Assembly: GCA_029834535.1 (NCBI GenBank) | Contig: JAQMWT010000362.1 | Coordinates: 62,001-126,000 of the forward strand | Source of the DNA: Chrysophaeum taylorii | Taxonomy: Eukaryota; Sar; Pelagophyceae; Pelagomonadales; Pelagomonadaceae | Direction: 5' to 3' | DNA length: 64,000 nt | Part shown: positions 17,487 through 63,521 of the stretch, piece after piece | Layout of the letters: each line of letters begins with the position of its first letter | Numbering within the stretch: position 1 is the stretch's first letter | The notes under the pieces: model-generated | Told to the model about the DNA's origin: nothing | Databases searched by the model: none | The model's input: only the letters and a program-made list of their open reading frames with translations | Made by a program: the position numbers and the translations under genes

Positions 17487-18449
17487 CTACTTTGGTGGTT
17501 CGTCCTTCAAGAGCACAAAGGTCTTCGCGAGGATGTCGCTGTAGACGCGGGCGTCGCCGTCGTCGTAGGAGACCTGCGAGACTTAGTTGCTTGATTGATT
17601 GATAAGAGGGAATTACGCACGTGGTGTCCGAGGTCGTCGTAGTTCGTGATGGTGCCCGAGTAGTAGGTGCCTCCAGCCCAGCGGACTTTGATACGACGTC
17701 CGACGATGGCGGCGGGGTCGTCGTCCGAATCGTAGGGGGCGAGGGCATCGTCGTCGTCGTCGTCGGGGGGGGGTCGTTTTTTGTCCGAGTCCTGGCGGCG
17801 GAGCTGGGTGGGGGAAAGCTGGAGGAGCACGCGGACGCGTCTGGCGACGTCCTCGTCGCGTCTGTCGTCGCGACGGGCGGGGTCGACGTCAGAGGTTCCG
17901 CGGCGGGCCGAGGTCCAGGATCGGACGCCCGAGGCGACGGCGCCGAGGGGAGCGCGGAGGGTGTCGAGGCTCGCGCCGACGAAGTTGAAGTTTGGCGAAT
18001 CGTGGTGGGCGTCGGGGTTGGGGACGTCCGGGGTGGCATCGAGGAGCCAGTCGCAGGCGCGCGGGTGCGCGCGGACCCAGTCTCGCGCGGCCGCGTCGCG
18101 CTTGCAGAGGCGGAGGAGTTCCTCTATCGAGGCTCGGAGTTTTCTTGGGGGTCGGCGGCGCGACGCGAGCTCGGTCGCGGCGACGGCGCGCGAGAGGCCT
18201 TTGGTGACGCGGAAGTGGCGGAGCGAGTCGTCGACGGAGAGGACGCAGGCGAGGGCGCGCCAGGCGCGGCGGAGGAAGTCTGTCGAGTACGAAAATCGCT
18301 CGCGCGAGACGACGGCGAGGCGGGCCTTGTGATGTTGATGGTCGTCGAGGAGCCGGAGGTCGTCGTCGTCGTCGTCGTCTTCGTCGTCGTCGTCGAGGAG
18401 ATCGTCCGCGCCGCCGTCGTCGTCGTCGAGCGCGTCTAGCTCGAGGATT

Positions 18450-18485
<36 letters not shown>

Positions 18486-21400
18486 TCTTCTCGGTGTTGT
18501 TGTTGTTGTTGGTCCGCGTCGACGCGGGAAGAGTCGTCGCGCTTCGCGCGTCTTCGACGGACGCGCGCGAGGCCGAGGTGGCAGCGGTCGACGAGAGCCG
18601 CCAAGACCGAGAGGGCGAGGTGCGACTTGTGGGCATCGTCTGCGACGAGGGTCTCGAGGAAGCGTCGCGCGGCGGCCGATCGGCGGCGGCCCTCGTCGGC
18701 GCCGCGCTTGGAGAAACGGCCGCGGTCGACGAGGGCCGCCGCGCCGACGACGGCCGTCACGACGGCCGCGTCGTCCGAGTCGAGGGCTGTCTTGGCCTTT
18801 TTGCGGAAGAGCTTGGCGAGGAGCTCGGCGCGCGTCGCGAAGGCCGCGAGGCGGCGGCGCGTCGTTCGCGGGGGGTCGGACGCCGCGCACGCCGCGCCGA
18901 CGAGCGAAGCCAGGGCCGTCGAGTTTTTGTCGTCGCCGGGCGCGAGGTCGGCGAGCCACGCGGCCGCCTCGGGGTCCGACGCAAAGATGGCGAGGGCGTC
19001 GCAGGCCGCGCGCGAGGGTCCGCGCTCGAAGAAGACGTCGCCGCGGTGGTCGCGGCGCGCGGGTACTTTGGCGTTGTGGCCTTGTCGCGGCGGTTGCGGC
19101 GGCGTCGGCGAAAGCGGCGGCCTGAGGAGGTCGCGGTCGTCGGTCGCCGCGACGGACACGAGGGCCCGCGCGCACTTGGCCGCCACGAGGGGTCGCTTGC
19201 GGCGCGCGGCGAAGAGGGCAGCGAGGGCGGCGGCGAAGAGCGCGCAGAGGGCCTCGCGCGCGGCCTCGTCCGGGTGCGCGGCCGCGCGGCGAAGCGCGTC
19301 GACGAGGGCCGAGGTGGTACCGCCGTCGTCGCGGCCGAGGATGAGCTGGGCGGCGGCGTCTTCGGCGTCGCCGCGCGCGAGGGCGGCCGCGACCGCGCTC
19401 GCGCACTTGGCGAGGAGGGGCGCCGCGTCGTCGTCCCTCGCGCGCGCGAGGGTTCGGACGCAGAGCGCGACACCGAGGCTCGCCGCGCGGCGCCGGAGGG
19501 CATCGTCGGCGTCGGGCGCGTGGAGACCCTTGTCGACGAGGGTCGCCGCGAAGGCGAGTCCCGCCTCGTCGAAGGTCGCGCGCGCCTTGCGGAGCGCGTC
19601 GTTCTCGAGCGAGACGAGGCGTCGAGTCGCCGCCGGCGGCTCGTCGTCGTCGTAGCCGTTGGTGATTTTTTCGGGGTTCTTCGGCGCGTGGCGGCGGCGG
19701 TGGTAGACGAGGAGGAAGGCGTTGCGCGTGCGCTCGCGGTGAAGCTGCGGCGGCGGCGCGGGCGGTTCGGGGGCCGTCGCGTATCGGAAATGGGAGGGGC
19801 GCGGTGGCGGCTCGGCGCCGCCAAAGCATTCGGCCGCGAGCTCCGCGTCGGCGTCGAAGGGCGCGACGTAGGCGTCGTTGAATTCGAACCACGCGCCGTC
19901 GGGTTCGCGGACGAACGAGTAGTAGTGGCCCGAGTGTGCCGTGCCCGCGTGGACGACGATGCCGCCGAGGTCGTAGGCGAGGCCGCCGCCGGGGTCGAGC
20001 TGTTCGACGTCCTCGGTCGCGTCGCGCGCCTTGGTCAGGAACGGGGCGAGGTCGAGGGTCTGGGGAAACTCGAAGCGCGTGTTGATCTTGCGCTGCGTGA
20101 GGGTCTCGAGGTCGAACTCGAAGCGCTTGAGGTGGACGAGGAGATGGCGCGGCGCCTTACGAATCGTGACGCCCTTGCTCGTCTTCTCGCGGCGGCCGCC
20201 GTCGCGCCACGCGTACTCGACGACCTCGGGCGCGACAAACGCCTGGAGCGCGTCCTCGAGCCGCGACCGGTCCTTGACCTGGACGCTCAGGAGGTAGAAG
20301 GGCTCGTCGCGCCGGCTCGTGTGGGTCGCCGGGTCGCTCAGCGCGCTCAACTCGTGCGCGAAGACGCCGCCGAACGCGCGCTCGAGCCGCGACGCGGCCG
20401 TCGCGCGGTGCCGGCTCCCGTCCTCGAGGAGGAGGGGCGGGTCCTCCGCTTCTCCCTGCTGGTGACCGCCGCCGCCGCCGCCGCCGCCGCCGCGGACGTT
20501 AAAAGTTTTGTCGAGGACGTCGTCGACGTCGTCGTCGTCGTCGAGCGAGCGGCGGACGGCCATGCGCTCGAGCTGCTGGAAGAGGTTGGCGATGAACTCG
20601 GAGGCGTCCTGCTGCTGGCGAACGTCGATCGGCTCGCCGTCCCAGGTCTTGAAGGAATCGCAAAAGGCGCGCGGCGAGATGCTCGCCGCGTCGCGGAGCG
20701 CGAGACGCGCGACGAGGAGTTGGAGCTCCCTCGCGAGTCTCTGGTGGGTCTCGTCCGAGTTGGCCGCCGCGTCGAGCGCGTAGACCGCGCTCCGGAAGGC
20801 GCGCGCCGACGCCAACAGCTGGAGCGTCGAGTTCAGATAGCAGGTGCAACCGAGGTTCTCGAGGCCGGCGAAGCCGTGGTGCGGCCGTCGCGCCGGGACG
20901 ATCACCGACGAAAACCGCGACAAAAAGGTCGCGCCGCCGCCCGCGATGAAGTCGGGCCGTTGCTGCTGCTGCTGCTGCTGCTGCGAGGTGGTCGCGGGCG
21001 GATTGTTGCGGTTGCGCGGAAGCGTCGCGAGCTGCGCCGCGCCGCCCGGCTGTTGGAGGTGGTGGGCCGCGCGCACGACGTCGGCCGCCTCGAGCTTGGC
21101 CGGGACCGAGTCCTCGTCCTCGTCGCCCGCGCCAGCGCCCGCGTCCTCGTGGAGCCGCGCGACGAGGTCGCAGACGTCGCCGAGCGCCGCGGGCGACGCG
21201 TCGCAGAGGGCCGCGAGCGTGTCGATCGCAACGGCCCGCGTCGCCGCCGCCGCGATGCCGTCGCCCGCCTCGAACGGCGCCTCGGCGACGTCGCCGGGCG
21301 GCGCCGCGCCCCCGAGCTCGCACCGCGCCGCGAGGTGCCTCGCGGCCGCGACGACGGCGCGCGTCGCCGGCCTCGCGCCGCACCGCACGAGGGCGCCCAG

Positions 21401-22262
21401 GAGCGCGAACCGCGCGCGCTCGAGCGTCGTCGCCGCGACGCGCGCCTCGTGCCGGAGCCGCGGCTGCGGCGCCGCCGGCGCGCGCGGGTTCTCGATCCGT
21501 CCCGCCTCCGACTCGTCCTCGCCGTCTTCGCCGTCCTCGCCGTCGGTCGCGAACGCGTCCGACGCGAAGAACGCCGCGTCCCGCGAGGACGGCGCGGAAT
21601 CCCCCCCGCCGCCGCCGCCGCCTCCGCCGCCGCCGTCGGGATGATGATGATGATGATGATGATTTTCGTCGTCGTTTTCGTCGCCATCTTCGTCGGCGTC
21701 GCACGGCTCCTCGTCCTCGCGGCGCGCGTCGTCGCGAGCGCGGCGCGAGACGAGGTCGAGCGCGAGGCGGTCGGCGACTCTCGAGAGCGTCGTCCTGTCG
21801 ACGGCATCGGCGTGCGCGCGGAGCTCGTCGAGGAGCGCGGCGACGAGCTCGCAGCAGCGCGCGTAGGCGTCGCGGTCGTAGGCGTCGGCCGCGTCGGCCG
21901 CGCCGAGGGGCTCGAGGAGTGCGCGCAGCACGAGGGCGGGGCCCCGCGCCGCGCTTTCGCGCGCGAGCCCGAACGCCTCGCCGCGGAGCCGCCGGCGGTC
22001 GCGGGCCCCCGGAGCCGCGCCGCGCGGCGGCAGGAGCGCGCGCCGCAGCGCCTTGCCAAAGGCGGGCTTGGCAAGCGCGTCGAGGACGACCGTCGTGCGG
22101 CGCTCGAGGCGCGCGAGCGAGAGCACGAGCCGCGTCGCGAGCGTCGCCGCGCGGTCACGCTGGGCGACGTCGATCACCGCGGAGACGAGGCCGCTCAGCG
22201 TGCGCTTGGCCTCGTCGGGCGCGAGCGTCGGGAATAGCGCCGCCCACAGCTCGCGCGGCTCG

Positions 22263-22329
<67 letters not shown>

Positions 22330-25300
22330 GCGACCGGGGGAGCGTCGCGTCGAGGGCCTGGAGTGCAAGATTTTCGGCGGCCTCGCCCGCTTTGAGGGTC
22401 GCGGCGAGGCGCTCGCGGAAACCCCGCGCCGCCAGGGCCGCGCGCCAGCCCTCGTCGCCCTGCGCGAGCGCGAGCGCAACGCGAAGCTTCTTCGCGCGCG
22501 CGTCGGCGGCGGCGGCGGCGAGGTCGTCGGCGAGCCACGCGAGCGCGTCGCGCAGCGCGTCGTCGGGGAGCCTCGACGAGCGGGCGGGGCCCGCCGCCCG
22601 GAAAAAGTCGCGCAGGAGCGCGGCGGCCGCGCGGTCGTGGCGCGTCGCGGCCGAAACGCAGCGGGTCGCGACGCGCGCGCGCGCAAGCGGCGACCGCGCG
22701 ACGCGGGCGAGGAGGAGCGCGGCGCGAGGGTCGAGGGGCGGCGCGCGCAGCGAGACGAGGACGAGGGCGTCGAGGAGGGCGAGGAGCCGCGCGTCGCGCT
22801 GGGATTCGCCGCCGCCGCCGCCGCCGCTGTCGTCGTCGTCGTTGAGGAGCGCCGTCTCGAAGAGGGCGACGGCCGCGCGCGGGTCGTCGGCGGAGGGCGG
22901 CGCGGCGGCGAGCTCGAGAAGCGCCTTTTCGGCGGCGCGCGGCTCGAGGGCGCGGCGCTCGGCGGCGACGGCGAAAAACGACGCGCCGGCGAAGCGCGAG
23001 ACGAGGCCCACGTCCTCCATCGAGAGGCGCGCGAAGTAGTACTTGGGCGGCTCGCCGTCGTCGTCGGCCTGCTCGGCCGCGAGCGACACGACGAGCCGGA
23101 GCGCCGCGCGCGGATCGCGGCCCTCTCGCGCGTCGCGACTCACGCGCTTGAGCGCGAGGCGCACGAGCGAGCCGCGCTTTCGCTCGAGCGCGCGCCGTCG
23201 CGCGTAGACGTGCGTTGCCGGCGCCGACTCCTCGCGCGCGACGACGAGCGCCGCGAGGAGTCGGCAGACGCGGTCGCCGCACCCGCCGTCGTCGCCCGAC
23301 GCGGGCGCGTGCGCGGGCCGCTGCTCGAGGCGCTCGACGCAGAGCTCGGCGCACTGGAGCGAGGGCCGATCGAGCGTCGACGACGCCGGCCGCCGGAGGA
23401 TCGAGGCGATCGCCTTGGCGGCGAGCCGCCGGCCCTCGAGCGCCGCGTCGTCGGCCGGCACGTCGCGGACGGCCCACCGCCAGAGCAGCTCGAGGCCGCC
23501 CTCGAGGTACTTGTTGGCGCTCGGCGACGGCCGCGGCGGCTGCTGCGGGTCGGCGCCCGCCTGCGCGGCCGCGCGGAGGAGCCGCGGGGCCGCGACGCGC
23601 GCGAAACTCGCGACGAGGTAGACGCGCGACCCGCTCGGCTCGACGTCCCGGCGGCGGTACGCGGTCGCGAGCTCGTCGCGCTGGCGAGCGACCAGCTCGA
23701 GCGGCAGCCGCGCCGCGAGCGACACCCACGCGCGCGCGCTCGCCGGCCGGCTCGCCGCCTCGTCGTCGGCGTCGTGCACGCACAGCGTCGCGAGGGCGTC
23801 CACCAGCGTCGGCGAGAACGGCCCGCACCGCGCGGCGAGCGACAGCGCCTCGAGCCCGACCTCGAGCGCCTCTCGGCGCCGCACAGCCAGAGCGATCACC
23901 GCGGCCGGCACGTCGCGCTTGGCGAGCCACGCCGCGAACCGCGCCTCGCCCATCTGCCAGTCGACCCCGGCCCCCGCCGCCGCCGCCGCCGCCGCCCCAG
24001 AGGGGGCCTCGCCGACCACCCACGGCGGCGGCCGTCGCACGGCCGCGCCCGCGGGCCGCCTGCCCGTCGCTTGCGCCTCGTCCTGCTGCGCCGCGGCGCT
24101 CCCCGCGAACGACGCCGCGACGGCGTTGATGCTCGCGACGCCCTCGAGCCGCGCCGCGTCGTCGTTCTCGTCGTCCCCCCGGAACAGCCGCGCGCTCGCG
24201 ACGTCGAGCTCGAGTCGCTCGGCCGACGCCCGCGCCGCTCGGCACGCGAGGTCCACGGGCGTCGGGCTCTGCGTCGGGCTCGACCCGCCGCCGCCGCCGC
24301 CCCAGTAGCTCCCGAGGTGCTGCTTCCACGTCGTCCGCTGCGCCGCCGTCGCCTCCCCGCGAGACCCCGGCCCGCGCGCCTGCTTGCGCGCCGGCGCCGC
24401 CTCCTGCGGCTGGGTCCCCGCCGCCGCCGTCGCCGTCGCCGGCATCCCGCTCGCCGTCGCGGTCGCGCTCGCCGTCGCGGCGCCGCCGCCGTTGTGGTTC
24501 GCGCCGTTGGCGGTGCTGGCCGCGGTGCTCATCGCGTTGAGGGAGGGGGCGCGGCACACGAGGGGGTGCCCGGAAACGACGAAGGCGTCGGGCGCGAGCT
24601 TGGCCAGCGCGCGACTCAGCGTGACGCGGGCGGCGTCGAGCTGCGCGGTCGTCGCGACGACGCGGCCCGGCGACGAGCGCGCCTGCGCGAGGTCGCGGAT
24701 CCGCGCGTTGGCGGCGCGCTGGAGGGCCCTCGCAAGATGTCGCGCCAGCGCGGGCGAGGTCGCGGGGGCGGCCCGCGCGAGCGAAGGCGCGACGGCGCCC
24801 AGCAACGCGACGAGCGCGTCGACGTCGCACTCCAGTCGCGCGGCCGGCGAGAGGCGCGCGACGAGCGCGTCCAAGCCGCCCGCGCGCGCCAAGTGGTCGA
24901 GCAACACCCCCGATCCCAACGCGTCGTCGAAAATCGGGGCCTCGTCCCCGATCTTCTCGCGCGCGCGCCGCAGCCCGAGCGCGGCGTCGCCGCAAAAAAA
25001 TGACGACGACCCCTCGGTCGCGCCCTTGGCGAACCGGAGCGCGACGCGCGCGTCGAGCGACGCGTCGCGGTGCCGCGCCTCGGGCTCGTCTCCCTCGCTC
25101 TCGCTGCAGTCGTCGAGGGGCCACACGTCCTTCGGGTCCACGCCCGCGGCGCTCTTCCGCCGCCGGCACCCCTCCCAGGCCGCCTGCGCGCCCCCGAGCA
25201 GCGGCTCGAGCGGCGCCGCCCACTCGCTCGGACTCTCGGCCGCCGCCGCAGTCGTCGGGCTGCCCGCGGAAGCCGGCGGCGGGGGGGCCGGGTGCGCCGC

Positions 25301-26299
25301 GCGCGGCGGCCGCCGCAGGGGCCGCGCCTCCAACGCGGCCGCGGGCGGCGTATGGCCCTTGGTGGCCGCGGCCGCCGGCTTGGTCCCGCCGCGGAACCCG
25401 AAGAACCGGCTCTTGTGCGCGCTCGGCGCCTCGGCCAACTCCGCCGCCTGCTGAACCGTCGCCTCCCGCGGCGTCTTGGGGTGCACCGAGCACCACGCGA
25501 CGCGCTCGGCCGCGACGGCGCCCCCCGAGACCAGCGCGATGTTCAGCACCCGGCACGTCACCGCGTCGACCTTGCAGTGCGGGCTCGCGAGCCGACGCGC
25601 GACCGCTTCGACGGCGCGACGGCACAGCCGGTGCGTCGCCGCCCCGAGCTCCCGGTCCCGGAAGTCGTCGCGCGCAGCCGCCGTCGCCCGATCCAAAAAC
25701 GGCTCCAGCTGCTTCTCCCACCACTCCTCCGCCCGAGGCGACGGCGTCGTCTGCTGCCCCAACGACGCGGTCGTCGTCGGCGGCGGCGTCTTGGGCCCGC
25801 GCCGCCGCCGCGCCGCGCCCGACAACTCACGCCGGCACAGCTCGGCCTCGATGCCCCACACATCCCCGACCGACGGGGCGTCCCCTTTCTTCTTCGGCGC
25901 CTCGACCTTGCTCGGGATCTCGGCCTCGGTCCGGCACACGACCAGCGTCGCCCGTTCGGACACAGCGATTCGGTCGCCGTCCGAGCTGCTCGCCTCCAAC
26001 TCCGCCAGCACCTCCAACACCGCCGCTCGGTCCTCCCCTCGGTGCACCACCAGCTTCACGCCGCCGTCCAAGGCGACACTCTGCTGCTGCTGCTCGACGG
26101 GCTCGTCGGCCGCAGCGACGCTCAAACCAGTTACGAACGATCCCGACTCGGCGCGCTTGCACCACAAGTACAGCCCCTCGCCACCCTCGCTCAGGTCCGC
26201 CGGACCACCGCTCAACGTCGTCACGCGCCGGTACCCCGCGGGACCCAGCACCTGGCCCCGCGTCACGGCGACGTCCACGACTCGCGAATCCATTAACAT
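17487..26299 (-). CDS. Giant ubiquitin carboxyl-terminal hydrolase (USP34/USP9X/USP24 class) with MABP-like and Tudor-like ends
   Basis: Exons 26299-17621 and 17573-17487 give about 2,921 residues. The N-terminal ~60 residues (SRVVDVAVTRGQ, ADLSEGGEGLYLWCKR) resemble an MABP beta-prism. A long helical-repeat region follows, then the USP domain at about 1800-2180: Cys box GLENLGCTCYLNS with the oxyanion Asn five before the catalytic Cys, a RHLLVHLKRFEFD strand, and His box AHSGHYYSFV. It removes ubiquitin from proteins. The C-terminus is a Tudor/agenet-like fold, RIKVRWAGGTYYSGTITNYD, completed only after removing a 47-nt phase-0 intron (GTGCGT...CAG, 17574-17620), which yields HHVSYDDGDARVYSD. 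Long Asp, Asn, His, Gly, Gln and Ala runs are encoded by triplet repeats. ATG 26299 or 26293 is chosen because the MABP-like fold starts there; in-frame ATGs exist further upstream. Confidence 0.9.
22264..22329 (+). repeat. GTT/GTC triplet run encoding poly-Asn and poly-Asp
   Basis: About ten GTT followed by about eleven GTC triplets, read on the minus strand as a run of Asp then Asn inside the ubiquitin hydrolase. Similar coding triplet runs lie at about 18360-18480 (Asp), 20953-20985 (Gln) and 21643-21662 (His). Confidence 0.85.
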
Positions 26300-27404
26300 C
26301 GCCCTCCCATCTCCTTTTTTACTCACGCTCCTACGCCTTCTTTGCGAGGGTTTCATTTTCGCCGCACGAGAACACAAGTAACGTGCCGCATTTGGGCTCA
26401 ATGTCGTCATGGGGGGGGGGAGGGGGTCGTCGGCGGCGCAGTTCTTTAGATATACCACGCTTCTTCCTAAATTGTACCGCCCGTCCGTCCGACTGTCCGC
26501 GTGTCTGCTACTGCTGATGCTGCTGCTGCTGCTGCTGCATGAGTGAAGATGCGCATGGTCGTCAACGGGCGAGGGGGACCAGCCAGCCAGCCACCAAACG
26601 CACGACGCTACAGCGACGACCGAGGTCGCAAACATATCCGCGAAACAGACCTTGGAACTTGGCAAAACGCGCCATCGAACGAACGAATTTTTTTGGCCTC
26701 GCGATGCAGCACTGTGTATACGTTATAGAAAGACTAGGCGACATCGACGTGCGACCAAACACCACCCAGCGTGCCTTGTGCGTGAAGAGAGCTGGGACTA
26801 TCGAGCGCCGAGGCCTGGACTTCTGCTCTCCTTGAATGTTGGCCGGGTTATTGTGACCAGCAAACGACGACGAATTGTGCTTTGGGCGGGTAAAAGCCGC
26901 GGAGAGCAATGAGTGCCCAACCAAGCGCCTTTTCGACCCGTGTGATTTTGGTTCGCGCCCACATCCTGGGCCTGAGCCGCAACATACCCGTCGTTGTTCT
27001 CAAGTAAAGTCCGCAAAAGTTGCGAAACCGGCGGTACAGGACCGCCACGTCAGCAGCGACAACGCCCGAAAATCACTCGATCGACGGGTTTTGGTGTCCC
27101 CCCGGGTGGCTGAGAGTGCAGTGACCTGTCGGGGACCGTGTTGCGTGGCTGAAGCGGCGCGTCGAAGTTGGTCACTCAAGTCGGCGGCTTTTGGGGATGC
27201 TCCGGTAGTAGTAGTGTCCGCTTTGTTGCGAAATACCGTAGTGGCACCAGATTCGGGTCAAACCAACAACGACCCTTGATATAGTTTGAAAATTCCGACA
27301 CGAGGATTCCATATTCGATCTCGCTTTTGCGATATGCGACGACGACAGTCGATGATGCTGTATGGCCGTCTGAAGTTGGGGGGGGGGGGTGTTGCACTAC
27401 TCAG
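26300..27404. other. Upstream region of ubiquitin hydrolase, with CTG repeat
   Basis: Holds the promoter and leader of the minus-strand hydrolase. A tgctgctgctgctgctgctgc run lies at about 26518-26538 and G runs at 26409-26418 and about 27380. Frames further right lack domains. Confidence 0.45.
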
Positions 27405-52386: not shown

Positions 52387-53580
52387 TCAGGCGGCTGCGC
52401 TGGTCCATCCTCGGAGTCCGACGGTGTCATCGAGAGTGGGTTGGCTGCCGGGCGCGTACTGTCCGAGGTTAGCCGCTGCGTTGGCCTTGGCTCTCGCGAC
52501 GAGGTAGGCCTGCGCCGCCTGCGTGTTGTCGGGGTTTCCGGCCCAGGCGTTGAGGCAAGAGGACTGAAGGGAGCGCGCGAAACCAAAGGTGACCGACCAG
52601 GGTCCCTTGCGCTCGATGCGATTCATCGCGTCCAGGCAGAGGGAGGCCTCTTCCTCGGAGAGGCCCCCAGAGTTGAAAGTAATCCCCGGGACCGCCGAGG
52701 GGACAGTGCGCTCGAGGGTTCTGACGCTGTAGGCGGCGACCAACTCGGGCGTGACGCGCTCGTCCGAGGCGAGGCCCGGCGTCGTCATGGAGGGTTTGAG
52801 GATGAGTCCTTCCAAAAAGACGCCGTTTTCGCTAAGGGCGCGAAAGACCTCGACATAAATCCTCTCCTGGATTTCTGCGGCGCGCTCGACGGCGTGGTCG
52901 CCCTCGAGCAGGACGGCCGGCTCGAGCAGCGGAACGAGGCCCAGCTCCTGCAAGGTCCGCGCGGACCGCGCCATCGTCCAGCAGTTTTCCTTGATGGCGA
53001 GCGCGCTGGGGGCGCCGTCGCGGTCGGATATGCGGAAGCGCGCGCGCCACTTGGCGAACCGCGCGCCGCAGTCGCGGAACCTCGAAGCGCGCTCGTTAAG
53101 GCCGTCGAGACCCCGGCTAAAAGTTTCGCCCTCGCGAGCCCCGGGGAGCACCGCGCTTCCGGTGTCGATCCGCACGCCCGGCACGGCGCCGTTCCCGGAG
53201 AGCACGTCCGCGAACGCTACGCCCTCGTCCGTTTCCTCGAGAAAAGCTTCGGCCGCGAGGACTACACCGGTTATGAACTTGCTCAACTCGGGGGTCGTGT
53301 ACAGCAGCGTGCGGTACGCGCGCACCGTCGCCTGGGTGCATTCCACGCCGCTCGCACCAAATCGGGCGAACAGCGTCTCCTCGGATTCGTCGCTCGCGAG
53401 GAGACCCTTCCCGGGGGCAACTAACGCGGCGGCCGTCGTCGCGAGCTCGGCGGCGTACGTCAACGGTACCACAAACAACAATTCCTTCTTCCTTCGTCTC
53501 GCCGACCAAGGTACGCTTTGAAACGCCAGCCCTAGCGACACGACGCACGCGACGACGAGGACCAATGAAGGTCGTCGCAT
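52387..53580 (-). CDS. Class I fructose-bisphosphate aldolase, plastid-targeted
   Basis: The enzyme cleaves or forms fructose-1,6-bisphosphate in the Calvin cycle or plastid glycolysis. From ATG 53580 it has 397 residues. Class I landmarks are LLASDES (60-66), KWRARF with the active-site Lys (177-182), LEPAVLLEGDH (219-229), the Schiff-base Lys 262 in LILKPSMTTPG, and ITFNSGGLSEEEA (300-312). The N-terminus is a signal peptide, LVLVVACVVSLGLAF, with Phe 20 after Ala at the likely cleavage site and a basic Ser-containing stretch after it, the ASAFAP-type plastid signal of algae with red secondary plastids. The usual IKVDKG loop reads VRIDTG (136-141), and the C-terminal Tyr is absent. Confidence 0.9.
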   Translation of the reverse strand: MRRPSLVLVVACVVSLGLAFQSVPWSARRRKKELLFVVPLTYAAELATTAAALVAPGKGLLASDESEETLFARFGASGVECTQATVRAYRTLLYTTPELSKFITGVVLAAEAFLEETDEGVAFADVLSGNGAVPGVRIDTGSAVLPGAREGETFSRGLDGLNERASRFRDCGARFAKWRARFRISDRDGAPSALAIKENCWTMARSARTLQELGLVPLLEPAVLLEGDHAVERAAEIQERIYVEVFRALSENGVFLEGLILKPSMTTPGLASDERVTPELVAAYSVRTLERTVPSAVPGITFNSGGLSEEEASLCLDAMNRIERKGPWSVTFGFARSLQSSCLNAWAGNPDNTQAAQAYLVARAKANAAANLGQYAPGSQPTLDDTVGLRGWTSAAA

Positions 53581-53827
53581 TATCCGACGGATACGCGATT
53601 CAACGTGCGAAACCCTCATCACCTGCTAGGGGGGGGTGCGAATGGGAGCGCGCAGGGCCCGCCATGTTCCTGTACTACTCGGTCGCCATCGCGGCGACTC
53701 TCGCCGTGGGAGTTAAGGGCGGGCGGCACCTCGCGCCTCTTCTTTAGCGTCCCTGCGCATGTAGAGCAGTATCCTGACCATGTCGTGTTTGACAAACGCC
53801 GTGTCTTCAACGAGCTCGAGCGGCGGA
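53581..53827. other. Aldolase upstream region and left flank of gypsy element
   Basis: A short minus-strand stretch just outside the LTR (LELVEDTAFVKHDMVRILLY) looks protein-like and may be an exon cut by the insertion. Nothing else is supported. Confidence 0.3.
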
Positions 53828-54157
53828 TGTAGTGGTTTTCTCAGATACCCGCCCCTCCTGGCCGGACCAGGGGCCTCAACAACCCTTTCTCCCAACCCGA
53901 ACCGCGGGTGAAACCACCACACGCCCGATCTCAGCGTAATACCTCACGCCATCACGAAATCGGACAATCAAATGAGGGTAATATCAAGAAGACAGCAAGA
54001 AAGCAATACAAATGCCTGGTACATTGGGTTCAGTGGAAGCGCAGGTGAGGGTGTCAAGATGACACCCCCCCATCAGTGCAAGGTCAATACCAGGGCAACA
54101 ATCAGGGTAAGTCAGGTGGCAGGCAGGCAAGTGGGGGAAATGGGCGTTACTGCCACA
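53828..54157 (-). repeat. 3' LTR of gypsy element
   Basis: 330 bp, TGTAGTGG... to ...CTGCCACA on the plus strand. A purine-rich tract (aagtagggggctcc on the minus strand, 54158-54171) abuts its inner edge as a polypurine tract. Confidence 0.93.
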
Positions 54158-54192
54158 GGAGCCCCCTACTTGAGATGAAGTCGTCCTCGACT

Positions 54193-54920
54193 TCAAGGGT
54201 GACGAAGGTCACGCTCACGAATGGTACGATAAGCTCGTTCAGCTACATCAGCAGGAACTTTGTTGCTGTGGAGACCGAAGTTAGTGACGAGGACATCGAT
54301 TTCATCCGGGCGAAAATCAGTCACACAGGGTTCACAGCCCTCCATGTTTGGTCGTAAACGTGTGAAGCTACCTCCGTCCGCATCTTTGTATTCTGGTCTT
54401 AAGCGTCGCTCAGCCAGAGGCTTAGTAGGATCAAAGACGCGAGGATCATCGCGCGGTCCCAAATCGGTATAGTAGTGAAGCGCAACTGTATCATTGTCGT
54501 GGTCATATTCTTCGTAGACTTCGGCAACATAGAGACGCTTCTTCCACGCGTTGGATCGTCCTTTCACCCTGAAAATCACGAACTTACCATGTTTGAACCG
54601 GTCGCGGTCCGAAGGTAAATGCAGAGGGGCGGAAGAAGTGTCGATGGGTGGCACTTTCAAAAGCACAATCTGTTGTACAGATACTACAACCGATTCAGCA
54701 TCATCGTCGTTGACGTCTTGAATTTCGTAAACGACGGGAGAGATCTTTCGAGTAACCATGTAAGGTCCGCGCCAAATGGGCCGTAGCTTGTGGCGCGTCT
54801 TAGGCACGAAACGCAGAACATAATCACTTGGGGAAAACTGGATGTCAATTTGGTGGGCATCATAGTTGAGTTTTTGACTCTCCTGTGCTTTTTCTGGTGA
54901 GCTCGTGTAACGAGTCGACT
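54193..54920 (-). CDS. Gypsy integrase C-terminal region, shifted frame
   Basis: Directly after the integrase stop another frame continues the expected sequence (SPEKAQESQKLNYDAHQIDI, then FVPKTRHKLRPIWRGPYMVT, VVYEIQDVNDDD), the SH3-like tail of gypsy integrases, and then about 150 further residues with acidic and Arg-rich parts ending RDLRHP. No chromodomain is evident. The shift at about 54915-54925 is probably an indel. Confidence 0.65.
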
Positions 54921-56099
54921 TTAAAATTCAAACTTGTTCTTAAAGTCCACCAAAATCTGATGACGTGATTGCGGTAGATCACGCTGTTCACTCAAAAGAT
55001 TGTAATCGGGTGGTAACAGGGGTTGCTTGCCAGTACGCATCATGAAAGGTAAAATCTTCGTTCCCGGAATGTACTTCCTATTGTACATGAATGACACATA
55101 TGGGAGGAAAATCGACCAATCTGGCTGACGCTGTTCATCGATCGCAGCTCGCAAGAAGGCTTTGATGAATCGATTGACACGCTCAGTATGATTACTCTGA
55201 TGGTGATACGGAAGGGTAGTACGATAACGTACGTTGAATTGACGAACAAACGTGCGAAATAACCTGTTCGCGAACTCATTTCCATTATCCGTGACTATGC
55301 ACCGTGGAAGACATCCCTCAAGTAAAATCTTGTCCACAAACGCGTTCAAAATCGAATAGTCATGTTTTGTGTTGATCAGAGCTAATTTCAAGAAATGCGA
55401 TGCTGCATCGTACATTGCGAGTATGTACGTGTACAGGTCAGCGCCTCGCAGAGGTCCAATCAAATCCATACCTAGGACATGGCAATCTCCGACGCGATTC
55501 GGTTGACAGAGCAAGCCATGACGTCTAGGCATGGTGGATCGAATCTTCTGGCAAATAATGCAAGCATTGACGAACTCATTAACTGATGATGAGACGTTTG
55601 GACACCAACACCGTTCTAAAATTTGAGTCGCTGTGGAGTCTCGTCCTACATGGCCTCCGAACAATCCTCGGTGATTCATGGCGATCACACGCTTTCGCAT
55701 AGACTGAGGGACCACAATAAGACGTTGAGAATCTGAATCATCGACCTTATACAACACGTTGTCATCAACCTCATGTGGTACGGATGACTGCTCGTCTTGA
55801 TCTTTCTGTTCAGGGTCGAGCTTTCGTCTGATGCGCTTGCATGTTTCATCCTCAGCTTGTTCTTTCGCTATCTCATCGAGAGTAATCTCATCCCCTGCTT
55901 GATCCGCAAAAGGGAGACGTTCGACGGAGTCAACTGGCTCAGACTCGTACGAGAATTGAGGCGGTTGTACGTTCTGTCGCGTACTAACTGCTACCATAGC
56001 GGCGGTGGGTCCGCTGTCCGTCAGCATAGGCATCGTCACCGAAGAGAAGGTGAAGCAAGCTGTGCCAGGGACATCGGTGGGGATTTCTTGGAAAATCAA
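54921..56099 (-). CDS. Gypsy integrase
   Basis: This frame lies at -1 to RNase H, joined at a T-rich gcttttTga site near 56093-56103. It has the HHCC zinc domain (MNHRGLFGGHVGRDST, then CIICQKIRSTMPRR), the core with Asp in LGMDLIGPL, Asp in CIVTDNGNEF and Glu in SNHTERVNRF, and a FLPYVSFMYNRK strand. It would insert the cDNA. The frame ends at 54921 just before the C-terminal region, which is displaced again. Confidence 0.88.
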   Translation of the reverse strand: MIFQEIPTDVPGTACFTFSSVTMPMLTDSGPTAAMVAVSTRQNVQPPQFSYESEPVDSVERLPFADQAGDEITLDEIAKEQAEDETCKRIRRKLDPEQKDQDEQSSVPHEVDDNVLYKVDDSDSQRLIVVPQSMRKRVIAMNHRGLFGGHVGRDSTATQILERCWCPNVSSSVNEFVNACIICQKIRSTMPRRHGLLCQPNRVGDCHVLGMDLIGPLRGADLYTYILAMYDAASHFLKLALINTKHDYSILNAFVDKILLEGCLPRCIVTDNGNEFANRLFRTFVRQFNVRYRTTLPYHHQSNHTERVNRFIKAFLRAAIDEQRQPDWSIFLPYVSFMYNRKYIPGTKILPFMMRTGKQPLLPPDYNLLSEQRDLPQSRHQILVDFKNKFEF

Positions 56100-57982
56100 A
56101 AAGCTTCATTGGTCGGCTCCCCGTCTTCATCTTTCTCGATCAATTTGTCGATAGGGTTGCGCGACAGACAATCCGGAATACGCATGCCAGGGGAGCTCCC
56201 AGGCTTGTATCCGAGCTCCCGGTCGAACGCAGCAAGCCGCATAGCCCATCGTGCTAACTGTCCAGACGTATGATTCGAATCCCGCAGAAACGTTAAATTA
56301 CGATGATCCGTCTCTAACTTCGTCTGATGACCTTCGATATAAAATCGGAAATTTTCGAGAGCAGAGAGTACTGCGAGGAGTTCCAAGCGCCGAGGATCGC
56401 ACTTCCTCATCGACTTAGGCACGGTTCGACTCCAGTACTCGATAACTCTCTCTTCGATTCTTTCTCTTCCATCGTCGTCAACGACTGGTACTTTTTGAAA
56501 TAGGTAAGCACCCAACCCATGCGCGGAAGCATCAGTTCGAATGTAAAAAGGTAACTAGTAATCAGGATGATAGACGCCCTTCGAAGTGACAATAGCCTCG
56601 ATGATGGCATCCCAAGCTTCCTGACACTCCTTTGTCCACTTGAATTTCACGTCCGGCAACGTCAGCTGTCTTAATGGCTCTGCAACTTTCGTAAAATTCC
56701 TTACATAACGCCGGTAAAAACTCCCCATTCCAAGGAAAGATCGCACTTGCTTCTTAGGGTCAGCATCCGACAAAGTGCGAGGAATTGGTATGTGTCTGAT
56801 GGCTTCTAAAGACACTGGTGATGGAAGAAGTCCGTTCAGTGTAGATAAATGACCCAAAAACTCAATGACTTCTTGCATAAAATGAATCTTCTTGATCTTG
56901 GCGCTGTACCCCTTCAAGGCGAGATGGGGAATAACTTGCACAAGGCACTGCAAGTGATTCTTTGTATCTGCGTGACCGGCGAGAATATCGTCGATATATG
57001 CCACGAGATCACGATATAGCCATTTCGACAAGTCAGTGTTCAACTGCTTGCAAAACAAACTTCCGGCTGGTTTGACTCCCAAAGGTAGACGCATGTAGCT
57101 GTACGCTCCCAGAGGACTAGTGAAGGTGACCACATCTTGTGCATCTAGCGACAATTGTAAATTGTGATAGCCCAAACGAATATCCAAACTGGAGCGACAA
57201 AACTTGTCGATGAGAAACATCAACGCGTCAGCCATGCTCACACTCGGCCAGCTATCATCCTTGAGCAATGCATTGAGGCGCCGTAGGTCGACAGCTGCTC
57301 TGTAAGCATTTGAAGTGCCAGGCTCAGCACCTTTCTTAGGCAACATCAAAATAGGGAACCCCCATGGAGAATTCGCGGGACGAATAACTTCGTTTTGGGT
57401 CCACGCTTCAATCTGCATCCGCAAACATTCAATCTTTTCTTTCGACAGCCGATATGGCGAGAGTTTGACGGGAGTCGGGTTCTCTTCTTTGAACCGGAGC
57501 GTCACTTCAGGTGAATCAACAGGTCTCATCACATCATCGAAAAATGCCCACGAATACGAGATTAAATGCTTCATCATCAGCTTCTCGTCATCATCTAAAG
57601 CAGGATGCTCTGTAATGCCCAATTCAGTCATCACCTCTTCGACTTGCGCGACGGTCGGAGGGATGACCTGCATGCTCTCCTGACCCGCTAAATGAGGAGG
57701 CATCACCGGTACAGGTTGGCCATGTTCGTCGTGAGGCGCGTCCGCCCACGGAACGTCATACGTATTGAAATACGCTGGTCGCTCTTTCGCGGTGCCTTCT
57801 TCTTCAGCAGTTGCATAGGGCTGGTTGTCGACTTGTTGCCTGCATAACAGCAGTGGCGACGGTGCCCCCTGCAAAAGATGAAGGCGATGTAACGGAAGGT
57901 GGAGGCGGGGTGGTGGGGGCAGCAGCTGATGGTGCAGGACTCGCAGGAGAATAGAGTTCATCGGGGGCAATCCATGACACAC
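56096..57982 (-). CDS. Gypsy reverse transcriptase and RNase H, with in-frame TAG
   Basis: One frame encodes reverse transcriptase (KLSPYRLSKEKIECLR, NSPWGFPILMLPKKG, RAAVDLRRLNALLK, SPLGAYSYMRLPLGVKPAG, VAYIDDILAG with the catalytic Asp pair near 56990, and FLGMGSFYRRYVRNF). A TAG at 56555-56557 interrupts it, and the same frame then gives RNase H (PFYIRTDASAHGLGAYLFQ, RRLELLAVLSALENFRFYIE, LETDHRNLTFL). The TAG falls between HPDY and LPFYIRTDAS, inside what is normally continuous. True coding probably starts near 57850, where the preceding frame ends. Confidence 0.88.
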
Positions 57983-59638
57983 TTCGAGTGGCAGGGTCGG
58001 GCGTTGGAATGCGCGACCCTACAGCAAATGGTGAAAACCGTAGAATATGGTGATCAGGTTGGGCTAGCGTAGTCGTCGCAATATTCCGCAACTTACCCAA
58101 ATTTCGAAGTGAAGGGTCAAACGAATCGTGCACTGCTAGCGCAATCCGCGTCATAGTCGCGGGTGGCTCCATACTGCCAAGCATCTTCATAGCTGCTGTC
58201 TCTGAAACTGTCGCACCCCATTGCCACGTAGCAGGAACGGTCATAATTTCCTGGTGCATCTGCAACGTGAGTGGACGGGTGTTCGAGAAATGAGGTCCTA
58301 GGTGGAGCTTATTGCGCGTCACCGTGAAGGCAGGGCCGATAGCCGGGCGCGTAGATGAGAAACTGTTCACTATAATGAGCGGGTGACCACCTGTAAATCC
58401 GAACGCTGGCCCAAAACGGTCCCTTAAATTCGGTTGTACACGCGATAATAAAGGCAGGTTCAAGCGAACATTGCACGCAAGTAGGCGTGTGCGCGAGCAC
58501 AGCAACTCTGGTGTGATACTATAGAAATCGACAATACGCGGCACATAAAATTGGTGATGCACAAAAGGGATCACTGATGTTCCTGCTCGAGCGTCCATCG
58601 TCCAATCAAATAAGGTGTGTTGCGGAAATGACGCAGGGCCCAAGAAGTAATAGTAGCGCCCCTGCGTGCGTCCCTGTAGTGCAAATTGGCAGTCGACCCA
58701 TAGATACACGGCGGACTGGCATGAAAATAAGAGTGCTTCCAAAAATCTGAATGTAAATACGACAACACGAAGTCGTATGTACGACGATGAGATTTCCCTA
58801 ACTCATGCAAAACATAGGGAATCTTCGGAAAATTGAGCTCAAAGGGGGCTTGAGGACAAGCATCCAAAGCCAGGACAATGCGAAATGAACTGCCATATAG
58901 CTCATTGCATCGCCGGATACCCAACGTTGATCCTCCAGCGCCAGCGCAGTAGACGACGACAAAGGTGTAGGTGATAGGTATCCAAACCAAGGAGGCGTGC
59001 TTAGATAGCAGCTCCTTAGCGGTCGCCTCCATCTGCATTTCTGGTGTTTTTTTCACTTTTTCATCTGGAGGTGGCTGAGGAGGAGGTCTGTCACTCAAGA
59101 CATCCTCCTCGACTTCATCGTCGTCAACAGCAGCCGTAAGAGTTGCATGACACACGTCATCAGTGGCTTCTAGCTGCATGTTGACACATCCTTCATGCGA
59201 CATGATCTCGCCTTGGACCACCGGGACTTCGGGGTCGATACCAATGGGTTCGTCACCAATGTGCTGCACAGCCACATGAACTTCGTTGGGCTCGTCAGCG
59301 CAATACGATGAATAGGAACCAGGTACAAGGCGGAGATCTTGGGGGAGTGACCGACGAGGTCGGAATACGTGACCCTTTTCCAGCGGCACATCGCACTCCA
59401 TCTCCAAGAAGTACGGTTGGCTTGGAAGAAGAAATCGAGTACTCGTCACGTACGCGAAATGAGGTATGATATCTTCCTCGTCTGCAGGGCATTCAAGTTG
59501 GTCTTCCGCTTTTTCAGCAGTCTGATCACCGGGAGGAACGTGATGGTGACTCGCTCTGATACGAATAGAGCGCAGTAGATTGTCATAACTCCACGGTTTA
59601 CCAACTGGCGTCCAAGTTTGGATATTTCCGTATTGCAC
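57804..59638 (-). CDS. C5 DNA-methyltransferase-like domain in gypsy pol (two frames)
   Basis: Two overlapping frames (59638-58571 and about 58742-57804) read as one C5-methyltransferase-like domain. Frame one has a motif I-like FVVVYCAGAGGSTLGIRR (near 58965-58912), an Asp-containing ALDACPQAPFELNFP, a motif IV-like HASPPC with the Cys (58706-58723) and LIGRWTLEQ, where Glu would match the ENV motif. Frame two continues with CSRTRLLACN (motif VIII-like), RPAIGPAFTVT (motif IX-like) and MKMLGSMEPPATM (motif X-like, 58164-58202), order and spacing as in the family. If active it would methylate cytosine in DNA. The frame change near 58570-58740 is either a lesion or a programmed shift. It sits between protease and reverse transcriptase. 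Confidence 0.6.
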
Positions 59639-61047
59639 AGCAACTTAGCTGTCGGGAACATCTGCACTACCTGCGGAGTCGCATCGAATGCATCATTGTA
59701 AAGGACAATTCCATGCTGGTCTTGTGGCGAGGCGGAAGTCCGATTCTTGAGAACTCCAATGGCCACTTCAGAACGCCGAAAAATAGCACTCTCTGTCGCA
59801 TAATCCAAAATCGTACCCAAGAGACGTAATTCTCGTGCTCCTAATAGTAACTGCCCATTCGTTTGACCAACGAAGAACATGAGCAGCATGGATGTCGTCG
59901 GCACCAAGGAGATCCGGAGAATGACCCATTCTCGAATAGCAGCTCCCGAACCTCCTGACCCATTTAGAGTACGAATCGTAGGGAGTGGCTTACGATAGAT
60001 GATTTTGCCGTCACGATCAAGTTTGCGATACAAGCGGTGATCGATGTAGGGGGAATCAGCCATGCCATCCAAACCGGCAGCGATGATGGAATATTTCGAA
60101 CCATCTAGCGAAGAGACAGCCACAGGCACATAGGCGGATCTCGTGCCATCGTACCTTACGGCTTTATTTTCACGATGGTCGGGATCCTGAGTGGTATTCA
60201 ACGCAGTCTGAGGGCAGAAACTCTCGAAATCCGAAGAGATGGAAGGGTGAGCGGCATAACGCTCGGCGCAGTCGTCCCTCGGTGGCACTATATCCATAGC
60301 GACCAAGGCATCTTGTCCCACACGAACAATCGTACACCCCAATTCGTCACGATTATCTTCGTCTTCCGAGGGAACTCTAGATGCAACTCCAGTCACTTCG
60401 GTACTTTGCTCCTGCTCCTCCACCCGTGCGTCTTCATTGATGACCAAAAAGGAAGGAGGTTCCATGAGGTCACCAGGGGAATAGCCTTCTGCAGAGAAGC
60501 TATCATCATCGCCCCCAGCATCGTCATCGTCATACACGCTGCCCTCCATGAGCTCAGAATACTGCACAGTGCAGTAGTCCGCTCGCTTAGTGTCATCCTG
60601 ATCTTCGCCAAGCACTTCAGGCCACTGAGCCGCGACACCATCATTGCGCTGGCTAGGGTTCGCTCTCTGAGACTGTTGCCCTCTAACCGGTGGGGCCGTC
60701 TGCTGTGCCTGACGAATCAAGTTCATCGTGCTGAGAGCCGTTGTCAGATCCTCCAGGCGCACCGAGGTCTGAGCGGTCCACTGCACTGCGGGCTGCCTTC
60801 GGACCACCTGCTGTTGAGTGCCTGCAACCAAACGCTGTTGAGTATCTGCAACCAGCTGCTGTTGACCTGCACCTGGCACCTGTGCTGCTGTGTAGACCAC
60901 CTGCGGCTGTTGCACAACGCGCGGCGCTAGCTGAGTCACTGAAGCCTGCCCTGCTGCAGCTAAAAGCGTCCGTCGGTATTGCTCCTGTCCATCTGGCGTT
61001 GCTGGAAAACCCGCATTCGTCAACGTCTGAGCAGCACGCCTCTTCCT
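59446..61047 (-). CDS. Gypsy pro region, in frame after gag TAG
   Basis: The frame runs 533 codons after the gag TAG with no stop. A Gln-rich, disordered first part is followed by an acidic stretch and then a retropepsin-like segment at about 60080-59800, AAGLDGMADSPYIDHRLYRK with later LLLGARELRLLGTILDY. The active-site triplet is ADS where Asp-Thr/Ser-Gly is usual, so activity is uncertain. It has no ATG of its own near the start, which fits expression by readthrough of the TAG. Confidence 0.65.
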   Translation of the reverse strand, partial: RKRRAAQTLTNAGFPATPDGQEQYRRTLLAAAGQASVTQLAPRVVQQPQVVYTAAQVPGAGQQQLVADTQQRLVAGTQQQVVRRQPAVQWTAQTSVRLEDLTTALSTMNLIRQAQQTAPPVRGQQSQRANPSQRNDGVAAQWPEVLGEDQDDTKRADYCTVQYSELMEGSVYDDDDAGGDDDSFSAEGYSPGDLMEPPSFLVINEDARVEEQEQSTEVTGVASRVPSEDEDNRDELGCTIVRVGQDALVAMDIVPPRDDCAERYAAHPSISSDFESFCPQTALNTTQDPDHRENKAVRYDGTRSAYVPVAVSSLDGSKYSIIAAGLDGMADSPYIDHRLYRKLDRDGKIIYRKPLPTIRTLNGSGGSGAAIREWVILRISLVPTTSMLLMFFVGQTNGQLLLGARELRLLGTILDYATESAIFRRSEVAIGVLKNRTSASPQDQHGIVLYNDAFDATPQVVQMFPTAKLLCNTEISKLGRQLVNRGVMTIYCALFVSERVTITFLPVIRLLKKRKTNLNALQTRKISYLISRT

Positions 61048-61914
61048 CTAGGGATTGTCCGGCACAGGACACACACCGTTGTCGTGGTTAAAACTACTAT
61101 GCCGGCCGCAACTGAGGCACGTCGTAATTGCTCGACGCGCATGGTTATCTATCCCCTGTGGTAGCCAGGTTCCAACTCCCGAGTCAGTAACATAACCAAC
61201 CCGTTGGACTGGCTGCAACTGCTGCCTCTGCTGCTGCTGCTCTCTCCTCATCCGTGGTGCGCGCCCCTTTCCCTTCTCCTTCTTGATCGCCTCTTCGATG
61301 TTGGCAGTAGGGTTGGCTTCCAGAATCTTGGAAATCTGGATGGTCAATTGAATGACATCGTTGAGGGTGAGAGTAGATGCTTTCATATGCGGTGAGGCCT
61401 GAGCAAGTTCGACGCTCGTCCGCAAGCGCTCAGAATTGAGACCAGCAATGAAGTGCGAACGGAACGCAGCCGGATCAGTATCGCGACCTGACATTGCTCT
61501 CCACTGGCCGAATTTCTGCACCCATCGCGCGATATACTTATTCAATGACAAATTCCCTTGCCGTAAATTGAACCATTCACGTTCAAGCTCCTCAACCGTT
61601 GCCCGAGGTGGACAAGGAAGCTTCGTCGCCTCTTGCATAGCATCATCCAGACAGTCCTCATCATGCTGGCGCAACTCTCTCAGTGTGATGGTCCCATCCT
61701 TGTATTTTTTCCACATCTGCGGCCTTTCAGCTTCCCATTTGCGATAAGCTTCCATAGGGGCGAGTTGATACTCGCCTCCAATCACGTTCGTCGCTATTGA
61801 GGGTTTATCAATCTTGCCTTCCATCATACGCCGCAACTGCATCCACCACGCGTCCACCTCATCACGGTCCTTAGTAATTTGCCCAGTGAGATTCGAAAAC
61901 GTGATACGTGTCAT
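61048..61914 (-). CDS. Gypsy gag, capsid and zinc knuckle frame
   Basis: 288 residues from ATG 61914. The gag core (DEVDAWWMQLRRMMEG, then EREWFNLRQGNLSLNKYIAR and FRSHFIAGLNSERLR) matches the retrotransposon gag capsid pattern. A basic Gln-rich stretch and one zinc knuckle follow, CLSCGRHSSFNHDNGVC, near the end. It assembles the particle and binds RNA. Its TAG stop comes six codons after the knuckle, and the same frame continues directly into the protease region. Confidence 0.8.
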   Translation of the reverse strand: MTRITFSNLTGQITKDRDEVDAWWMQLRRMMEGKIDKPSIATNVIGGEYQLAPMEAYRKWEAERPQMWKKYKDGTITLRELRQHDEDCLDDAMQEATKLPCPPRATVEELEREWFNLRQGNLSLNKYIARWVQKFGQWRAMSGRDTDPAAFRSHFIAGLNSERLRTSVELAQASPHMKASTLTLNDVIQLTIQISKILEANPTANIEEAIKKEKGKGRAPRMRREQQQQRQQLQPVQRVGYVTDSGVGTWLPQGIDNHARRAITTCLSCGRHSSFNHDNGVCPVPDNP

Positions 61915-62723
61915 ACCAGCAGCTCCCTTCTTGACATGAGGTATCTCTTCTTCGTCACGACGATGCGCCGAACCGGGATCAGTATGATGGTGCGGGGTAG
62001 GCTCCGGTCGACTTCGCGGTGGCTGATCAGTACCGATACAGCGTCATCATCGTCGGGCGTAACACGAGTAGCATCCGGAGAGGTTGGCCGTGCCTCTCGA
62101 GCATGCGCCCGCATGGATTCCTCCACCATTCGTCGAAGTCGATCGTCGTCGATCCGCTGCCGCTCCACTTCTGAGCGTTGTTGTTGAGCGTCGCGGCGGG
62201 TGCTCTCAAGTTCACGTATGACTTGCTCGATCTGCGACTGGTACATCTCGAATCGTTCGACGATGGTCTGCAGAACCTCGGGGTCGACATCCACGCGAAA
62301 ATCTGTCGCTCTCGTATTCGCAGATGGTGGCCTAGGAGGTGCACTCTCCTCTGGTCCACGCATCGCCGCAAACGGTCCGGGTTCCGCTCGAGATGACTCC
62401 GTAGCATTCATCGCACGTTCGTGGGGTCGTGCGTACGGGAACGTCGGCTCACCCGGTCTTGAAGTTGCGTCTGGCGCAACCGTAGCTCCCCCTTCGCCGG
62501 CGCGTGGATCCGGAAGGATGACCACGCTTGGGGGGCTGTCGAGGCTATCAGAGGATCTTGCCTCTCTTCCGATGCCACTTTCCTCGGCTTCCGGCCGTTG
62601 AAAGGGCGTACTGAATGGTGTTCTCCCAATAGACGCAAATGGAGTCCCTGCACTGAATCGTTGCAGACGCTCCTGTGCGCCCCGAAACCACTGCGGTCGT
62701 TCTGTCATTGGCCTCTCTGCCAT
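61911..62723 (-). CDS. Gypsy gag, N-terminal frame
   Basis: 270 residues from ATG 62723. The first half is Pro/Ser-rich and disordered. Residues about 150-215 form a coiled coil (VLQTIVERFEMYQSQIEQVI, then QQQRSEVERQRIDDDRLRRM). It ends in TGA that overlaps the next ATG as ATGA. It probably makes the structural or RNA-binding leader part of the particle protein. Whether it is a separate protein or fused to the next by frameshift cannot be told. Confidence 0.6.
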   Translation of the reverse strand: MAERPMTERPQWFRGAQERLQRFSAGTPFASIGRTPFSTPFQRPEAEESGIGREARSSDSLDSPPSVVILPDPRAGEGGATVAPDATSRPGEPTFPYARPHERAMNATESSRAEPGPFAAMRGPEESAPPRPPSANTRATDFRVDVDPEVLQTIVERFEMYQSQIEQVIRELESTRRDAQQQRSEVERQRIDDDRLRRMVEESMRAHAREARPTSPDATRVTPDDDDAVSVLISHREVDRSLPRTIILIPVRRIVVTKKRYLMSRRELLV

Positions 62724-63133: not shown

Positions 63134-63182
63134 GAAACAGGAGATCGATAGTCCGGGAGTTGGACTATCGATTTCCCGTTTC
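63134..63182 (-). other. 21-bp hairpin in retrotransposon leader
   Basis: gaaacaggagatcgatagtcc at 63134-63154 is matched at 19 of 21 positions by the reverse complement of 63162-63182, with a 7-nt loop; the inner 11 bp are perfect. It overlaps the edge of the primer-binding site. Confidence 0.8.
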
Positions 63183-63191
63183 TGAGACCAC
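63178..63191 (-). promoter_or_regulatory. Putative tRNA primer-binding site
   Basis: Directly inside the 5' LTR the minus strand reads gTGGTCTCAGAAAC, beginning TGG after a one-base spacer, as expected for pairing with a tRNA CCA end. It is similar to, not identical with, the initiator-Met type TGGTATCAGAGC. The tRNA is not identified. Confidence 0.6.
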
Positions 63192-63521
63192 TGTAGTGGT
63201 TTTCTCAGATACCCGCCCCTCCTGGCCGGACCAGGGGCCTCAACAACCCTTTCTCCCAACCCGAACCGCGGGTGAAACCACCACACGCCCGATCTCAGCG
63301 TAATACCTCACGCCATCACGAAATCGGACAATCAAATGAGGGTAATATCAAGAAGACACCAAGAAAGCAATACAAATGCCTGGTACATTGGGTTCAGTGG
63401 GAGCGTAGGTGAGGGTGTCAAGATGACACCCCCCCATAAGTGCAAGGTCAATACCAGGGCAACAATCAGGGTAAGTCAGGTGGCATGCAGGCAAGTGGGG
63501 GAAATGGGCGCTACTGCCACA
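63192..63521 (-). repeat. 5' LTR of gypsy element
   Basis: 330 bp, same ends as the other LTR with six differences. On the minus strand this copy carries the promoter and transcript start of the element. Confidence 0.93.

Follow-up and report, generated by a model that had tools for sequence, protein, structure and literature searches.

The window analysed here, a stretch of 64,000 nucleotides from Chrysophaeum taylorii, contains a decayed 9.7 kb retrotransposon of the Ty3/gypsy type on the minus strand (63521-53828), whose coding part is split over several frames. Between its protease-like region and its reverse transcriptase (RT), the element carries a C5-cytosine methyltransferase (MTase) domain. 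Domain type, gypsy carrier and position within the element had been proposed in an earlier sequence-only reading, and all three hold in the light of the motifs, the Pfam matches, the long terminal repeats (LTRs) and the match to an open copy elsewhere in the assembly, L002. The interval of 58100..58970 given in that reading was nearly right; the domain is placed here at about 58987-58090. The element is laid out as follows.

63192..63521, minus strand: 5' LTR, TG...CA, 330 bp, with 324 of 330 bases the same as in the 3' LTR and a 300-nucleotide repeat at 98%
63174..63190, minus strand: primer-binding-site-like stretch with a TGG start, read from the sequence directly after the 5' LTR
61048..62043, minus strand: gag-like frame, Pfam Retrotrans_gag 18.1 bits, under the cut-off of 24.1
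59800..60100, minus strand: protease-like region (LDGMADSPYI ... LLLGARELRLLG), a frame reading by eye without a Pfam match
58090..58987 (about), minus strand: C5-MTase domain with a frameshift near 58585, recognised by its motifs, by an open homologous copy that passes PF00145, and by clades and residues
56849..57340, minus strand: reverse transcriptase RVT_1, Pfam 52.1 bits, cut-off 29.6
56225..56551, minus strand: RNase H (RT_RNaseH), Pfam 87.6 bits, cut-off 24.8
55203..55712, minus strand: integrase, zinc-binding H2C2 (55.1 bits, cut-off 25.5) and core (rve, 30.4 bits, just below the cut-off of 32.6)
54685..54768, minus strand: integrase C-terminal piece Integrase_p58_C, Pfam 29.3 bits, cut-off 27
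54158..54171, minus strand: polypurine-tract-like stretch, read from the sequence directly before the 3' LTR
53828..54157, minus strand: 3' LTR, 330 bp, pairing with the 5' LTR as a direct repeat

The element is filed under Ty3/gypsy because of its LTRs and its Pol order, in which the Pfam matches place RVT_1 first, then RNase H and then integrase. No target-site duplication is visible in the flanks of the window copy, the only copy examined for one; a missing duplication is common in decayed or recombined copies.

The peptides quoted in the sequence-only reading are all present on the minus strand, in two frames. AGAGGSTLGIRR, ALDACPQ (which holds the Asp), HASPPC and RWTLEQ lie in the frame 59032-58572, while CSRTRLLACN, PAFTVTRNK and MKMLGSMEPP lie in the frame running down from 58586, the domain being split by a single frameshift near 58585. 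The profile search proposed for both frames gave a divided answer. The window pieces miss the Pfam cut-off, the first having no methylase match and the second scoring 12.2 bits (E 0.12), but L002, which is 95% identical to the window copy over the first half and whose frame is open through the MTase domain, matches Pfam DNA_methylase (PF00145) at 33.7 bits (E 3.4e-8, curated cut-off 22). L002 reaches 18.2 bits against NCBIfam dcm, far below the cut-off of 100.65, and PHROG DNA methyltransferase models match the gypsy MTase at 5.2e-10 and 3.6e-12. Since the scores of the window copy alone are not significant, the resemblance might be put down to chance or to an artefact of reading degenerate sequence. 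Chance motifs are refuted, however, by PF00145 matches above the cut-off in three clades of copies (33.7 bits in clade A, L002; 38.1 in clade B, L076; 26.6 in clade C, L066), by the PHROG matches and by dN/dS values (nonsynonymous over synonymous substitution rates) far under 1, which leave such an explanation extremely improbable. At E<=0.1 there is no PF00145 match for L064 of clade D or for P0003, a protein from outside the assembly. Judged by its sequence, the gypsy-borne domain is a genuine C5-MTase domain, with putative activity and a putative substrate.

The domain is widespread in the assembly searched (70.8 Mb, 697 contigs), where copy counts are lower bounds and include fragments. 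A window-type query finds at least 151 matches (150 of 679 candidates scored) and a clade C query at least 132 (132 of 1010 scored), every clade C match listed being at least 79% identical; nine of the window-type matches, with 42-43% identity, are certain or probable members of clades C and D. Matches run parallel at near-equal positions on the contig pairs C10/C297, C25/C521 and C6/C268, which suggests duplicate haplotype contigs among them, so that the counts may be inflated. Relative to clade A, the window type, identity is 83% for clade B (L076), 41% for C (L066), 42% for C2 (L105) and 38% for D (L064). The MTase of P0003 is 36% identical to clade A, and there too the domain sits with RT and RNase H. 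The window's own contig has a further copy of the MTase about 11 kb past the window (G000:C362:136723-137613, plus strand), with 80% identity to clade C.

Across eight aligned sequences, F14, G16, G19, D42, P94, C96, E136, R168, R170, P277 and P278 are invariant. The MTase domain is matched by 64 of 68 loci, and it is full-length and free of stops in 23 of 50. The Cys of the SPPC motif and the Glu motif, whose state in other copies had been chosen beforehand as a refuting test, are kept in 60 of 60 covered copies (Cys96, the catalytic residue) and in 53 of 59 (Glu136, with four D, one Q and one S as exceptions); Arg168 is kept in 58 of 59 and Arg170 in 59 of 59. The median share of the top residue is 0.78 over 310 columns, the Cys column ranking 15th and the Glu column 94th. 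C5-MTases usually have ENV in motif VI and PPCQ or PPCN in motif IV. The gypsy MTase shares motif order and, going by a low-confidence model, possibly the fold with the stand-alone enzymes DNMT2, DNMT3, DNMT5, M.HhaI and M.HaeIII, but differs from them in having EQE in motif VI and PPC[IV] in motif IV. The EQE form, together with the low family scores and the replacement of Glu in six of the 59 covered copies, would fit a domain that is catalytically dead and contributes to Pol by binding nucleic acid or as a structural component. The Cys kept in every covered copy and motif residues that are invariant across lineages at 36-41% identity make this improbable.

The absence of an MTase fold had been named in advance as a second ground for refutation, and the structure prediction did not refute the domain. 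With a low-confidence model of the gypsy MTase, Foldseek gives ten matches at E<=0.001, every one of them a Dnmt2 or DNMT3 entry, with Dnmt2 leading. Structural alignments with stand-alone C5-MTases have 7-15% identity, and a sequence search of the PDB returned nothing at E<=0.001, its weak matches being mostly C5-MTases. Two host-like genes were found: L083 (C621), DNMT5-like with PF00145 and SNF2, and L031 (C634), with PF00145, which we take to be DNMT2-like from its PPCQP-type motif IV. No other host-like gene appears among the matches listed in the six-frame PF00145 scan, which is limited by introns. Of the host enzymes, L031 comes closest to gypsy clade C, with an E of 7e-4 against a database of five sequences. 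These likenesses raise the possibility that the domain acts in the manner of DNMT2 on RNA, either element RNA or the tRNA primer, and not on DNA. Its small size would suit such a role, and RNA methylation has been raised for SymbioLINE-Dnmt in the accessible text of de Mendoza et al. 2018 (PMC5890265). Against this, DNMT3, DNMT5 and M.HhaI give matches of similar quality to Dnmt2 in the structural comparison, and the PPCQP-type motif IV seen in L031 is not kept, PPC[IV] standing in its place; an RNA substrate is rated unlikely, though less so than lost catalysis.

Purifying selection across copies, which the sequence-only reading had proposed looking for, was found. Between clades A and B, dN/dS is 0.063-0.083 for the MTase and 0.064 for the RT in the one computable pair, the other being saturated; between clades C and C2 it is 0.034-0.043 for the MTase and 0.021-0.022 for the RT. 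All these between-clade ratios are rough, with dS at 1.3 to 2.9. Eighteen clade A copies have a mean dN/dS of 0.218, and close pairs can run higher (L075/L076, 0.863; L088/L064, 0.325). Taken together, the substitution patterns indicate that purifying selection acts on the gypsy MTase.

Across six lineages (A, B, C, C2, D and P0003), MTase identities correlate with those of the RT (r 0.81); of 720 permutations, only the true order attains this value. For C compared with D, identity is 48% in the MTase and 80% in the RT, a much larger divergence of the former. That the two domains diverge together argues for an old capture. Seventeen RTs without an MTase listed nearby were picked by hand, and in 13 of them an MTase or what is left of one is present, in some cases as a very short piece. 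In the other four, on C335, C35, C6 and C268, the stretch read is devoid of an MTase. C335 has an A/B-type linker by eye from which the domain is gone, the C35 RT is 96% identical to clade C, and the MTase stretch on C6 and C268 is taken up by a copia element of another kind. These four places look like later losses or interruptions and none is a sister lineage, so an MTase-free sister lineage was rejected. Thus the common ancestor of the sampled clades probably carried the MTase.

A second retrotransposon family in the same assembly carries another C5-MTase. A PF00145 scan gave at least 57 matches (123 of 474 candidates scored), comprising the two host-like genes and 55 others; all 28 of the non-host matches fetched (L033-L060; 28 of the 55) are of one MTase type. 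Its carrier is represented by the following element.

L061:3097-8499 (G000:C96:60000-68500): copia element with an MTase between protease-like motif and integrase

A single frame of L061 holds a protease-like LIDGGA motif at residue 80, PF00145 at 349-475 (32.2 bits), rve at 1016-1110 (17.4 bits, under the cut-off of 32.6) and RVT_2 at 1686-1794 (64.7 bits), the RT downstream of the integrase being the Ty1/copia order. The copia MTase has the motifs PCQ and ENVPP and, read by eye far downstream, the motif IX/X-like RYATLNE and ANAVP. A search with it finds at least 152 matches (150 of 469 candidates scored), and dN/dS is 0.115-0.202 in six pairs and 0.425 in L061/L062. Its predicted structure, at a pLDDT of 27.4, was not used. 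Although both MTases fall under PF00145, a common origin has no support (hhalign probability 0.1%; best BLASTP E 4.3). The suggestion that the gypsy domain is a distinct captured lineage has support within the comparison made, which covered the host DNMTs and the copia MTase and turned up no close relative among them. By searches that need shared words or patterns, no donor or wider relative was confirmed in viral contigs (38 pattern matches) or prokaryote genome contigs (76), and a set of 5.8 billion proteins yielded P0003 alone for the gypsy MTase and no match for the copia MTase. The protease-like regions of both elements (window 59800-60100; L061 residue 80) read D-G-[MG]-A, the usual aspartic protease motif being D-[ST]-G-A.

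The copies themselves bear on where methylation might act. C/T differences between gypsy copies (435 pairs) stand at 0.0537 for CpG, 0.0525 for CpT, 0.0420 for CpC and 0.0370 for CpA, and those between copia copies (293 pairs) at 0.140, 0.173, 0.122 and 0.074, respectively; copy pairs share history and the comparison is descriptive. The CpG observed/expected ratio comes to 1.04 for the window element and to 1.31 for positions 1-52000 of the window. There is no excess of CpG mutation over CpT in the gypsy or copia copy pairs, which speaks against lasting CpG methylation of the copies.

The explanation favoured here, with a probability of roughly 0.6, is that a Ty3/gypsy lineage captured a C5-MTase long ago and has kept it in Pol, between protease and RT, as a working part whose presumed role is methylation of cDNA. 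The MTase domain would be made together with Pol, would ride inside the virus-like particle and, as the function of first choice, would methylate cytosines of the newly made cDNA. Methylated cDNA might then escape recognition or damage by the host, or the mark might determine the chromatin state of the fresh insertion; both ideas are discussed for other such elements in the available part of de Mendoza et al. 2018 (PMC5890265), where de novo CG methylation by a retrotransposon DNMT in yeast is also described. That a Ty1/copia family holds another MTase at the equivalent position suggests one need answered on two occasions. It is tempting, if speculative, to go further: two LTR superfamilies may have taken up unrelated C5-MTases independently, each keeping its own at the matching point of Pol, behind the protease-like region, under purifying selection. 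As the copies bear no CpG scar, the substrate may be transient, and methylation of particle cDNA might let the element pass a host check on unmethylated foreign DNA, in a restriction-modification-like contest within a eukaryote.

Several parallels can be drawn with known elements, here by the accessible text of the sources. The arrangement inside gypsy Pol, of which the sequence-only reading was not aware, has already been published as KnitGypsy-Dnmt3 of Klebsormidium nitens, and captured DNMTs have been reported for DIRS, LINE and one gypsy lineage (PMC5890265; for C5-MTases in gypsy Pol also PMC6338049). As in the window element, KnitGypsy-Dnmt3 has a C5-MTase inside a gypsy-type Pol, with key residues kept and purifying selection (Ka/Ks < 0.2). 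Its repeats, by contrast, are DIRS-like, unlike the pair of plain direct LTRs in the window element, and its MTase is Dnmt3-related, whereas the window MTase is not placed in one family, the comparison being by published description. SymbioDIRS-Dnmt3 and SymbioLINE-Dnmt of Symbiodinium are likewise retrotransposon-borne C5-MTases, present in hundreds of copies, but their carriers are DIRS and LINE elements, as opposed to gypsy and copia here (PMC5890265). A divergent, multi-clade gypsy MTase lineage with plain LTRs is new, and a Ty1/copia family with a different C5-MTase after the protease-like region may be so, prior knowledge of it being possible. No Ty1/copia element with a C5-MTase was found in the accessible text of the literature searched (subscription papers mostly outside), save for a passage in PMC12344493, which places some DNMT3 members in LTR Copia and DIRS elements and cites the 2018 paper. 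The available text of the latter names Gypsy, and its Symbiodinium Copia is without a DNMT; the Copia wording may be a slip. Within a single compact genome of 70.8 Mb, an old, many-copy gypsy lineage and a separate copia family have different C5-MTases, a double occurrence which makes it testable that DNA methylation serves a retrotransposon's own life cycle and not only host silencing.

Turning to the surroundings of the element, a class I fructose-bisphosphate aldolase frame (52390-53625, minus strand; Pfam 388 bits) begins some 200 bp beyond the 3' LTR, downstream and in the same orientation, which places the element in the aldolase upstream region. A leader is seen on this aldolase, as on the light-harvesting-like protein that neighbours L031, and by their look these two proteins point to a red-plastid alga as the host. 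Elsewhere in the window, an open frame of 3052 amino acids (17507-26665, minus strand) lies in very GC-rich sequence where long frames overlap on the two strands.
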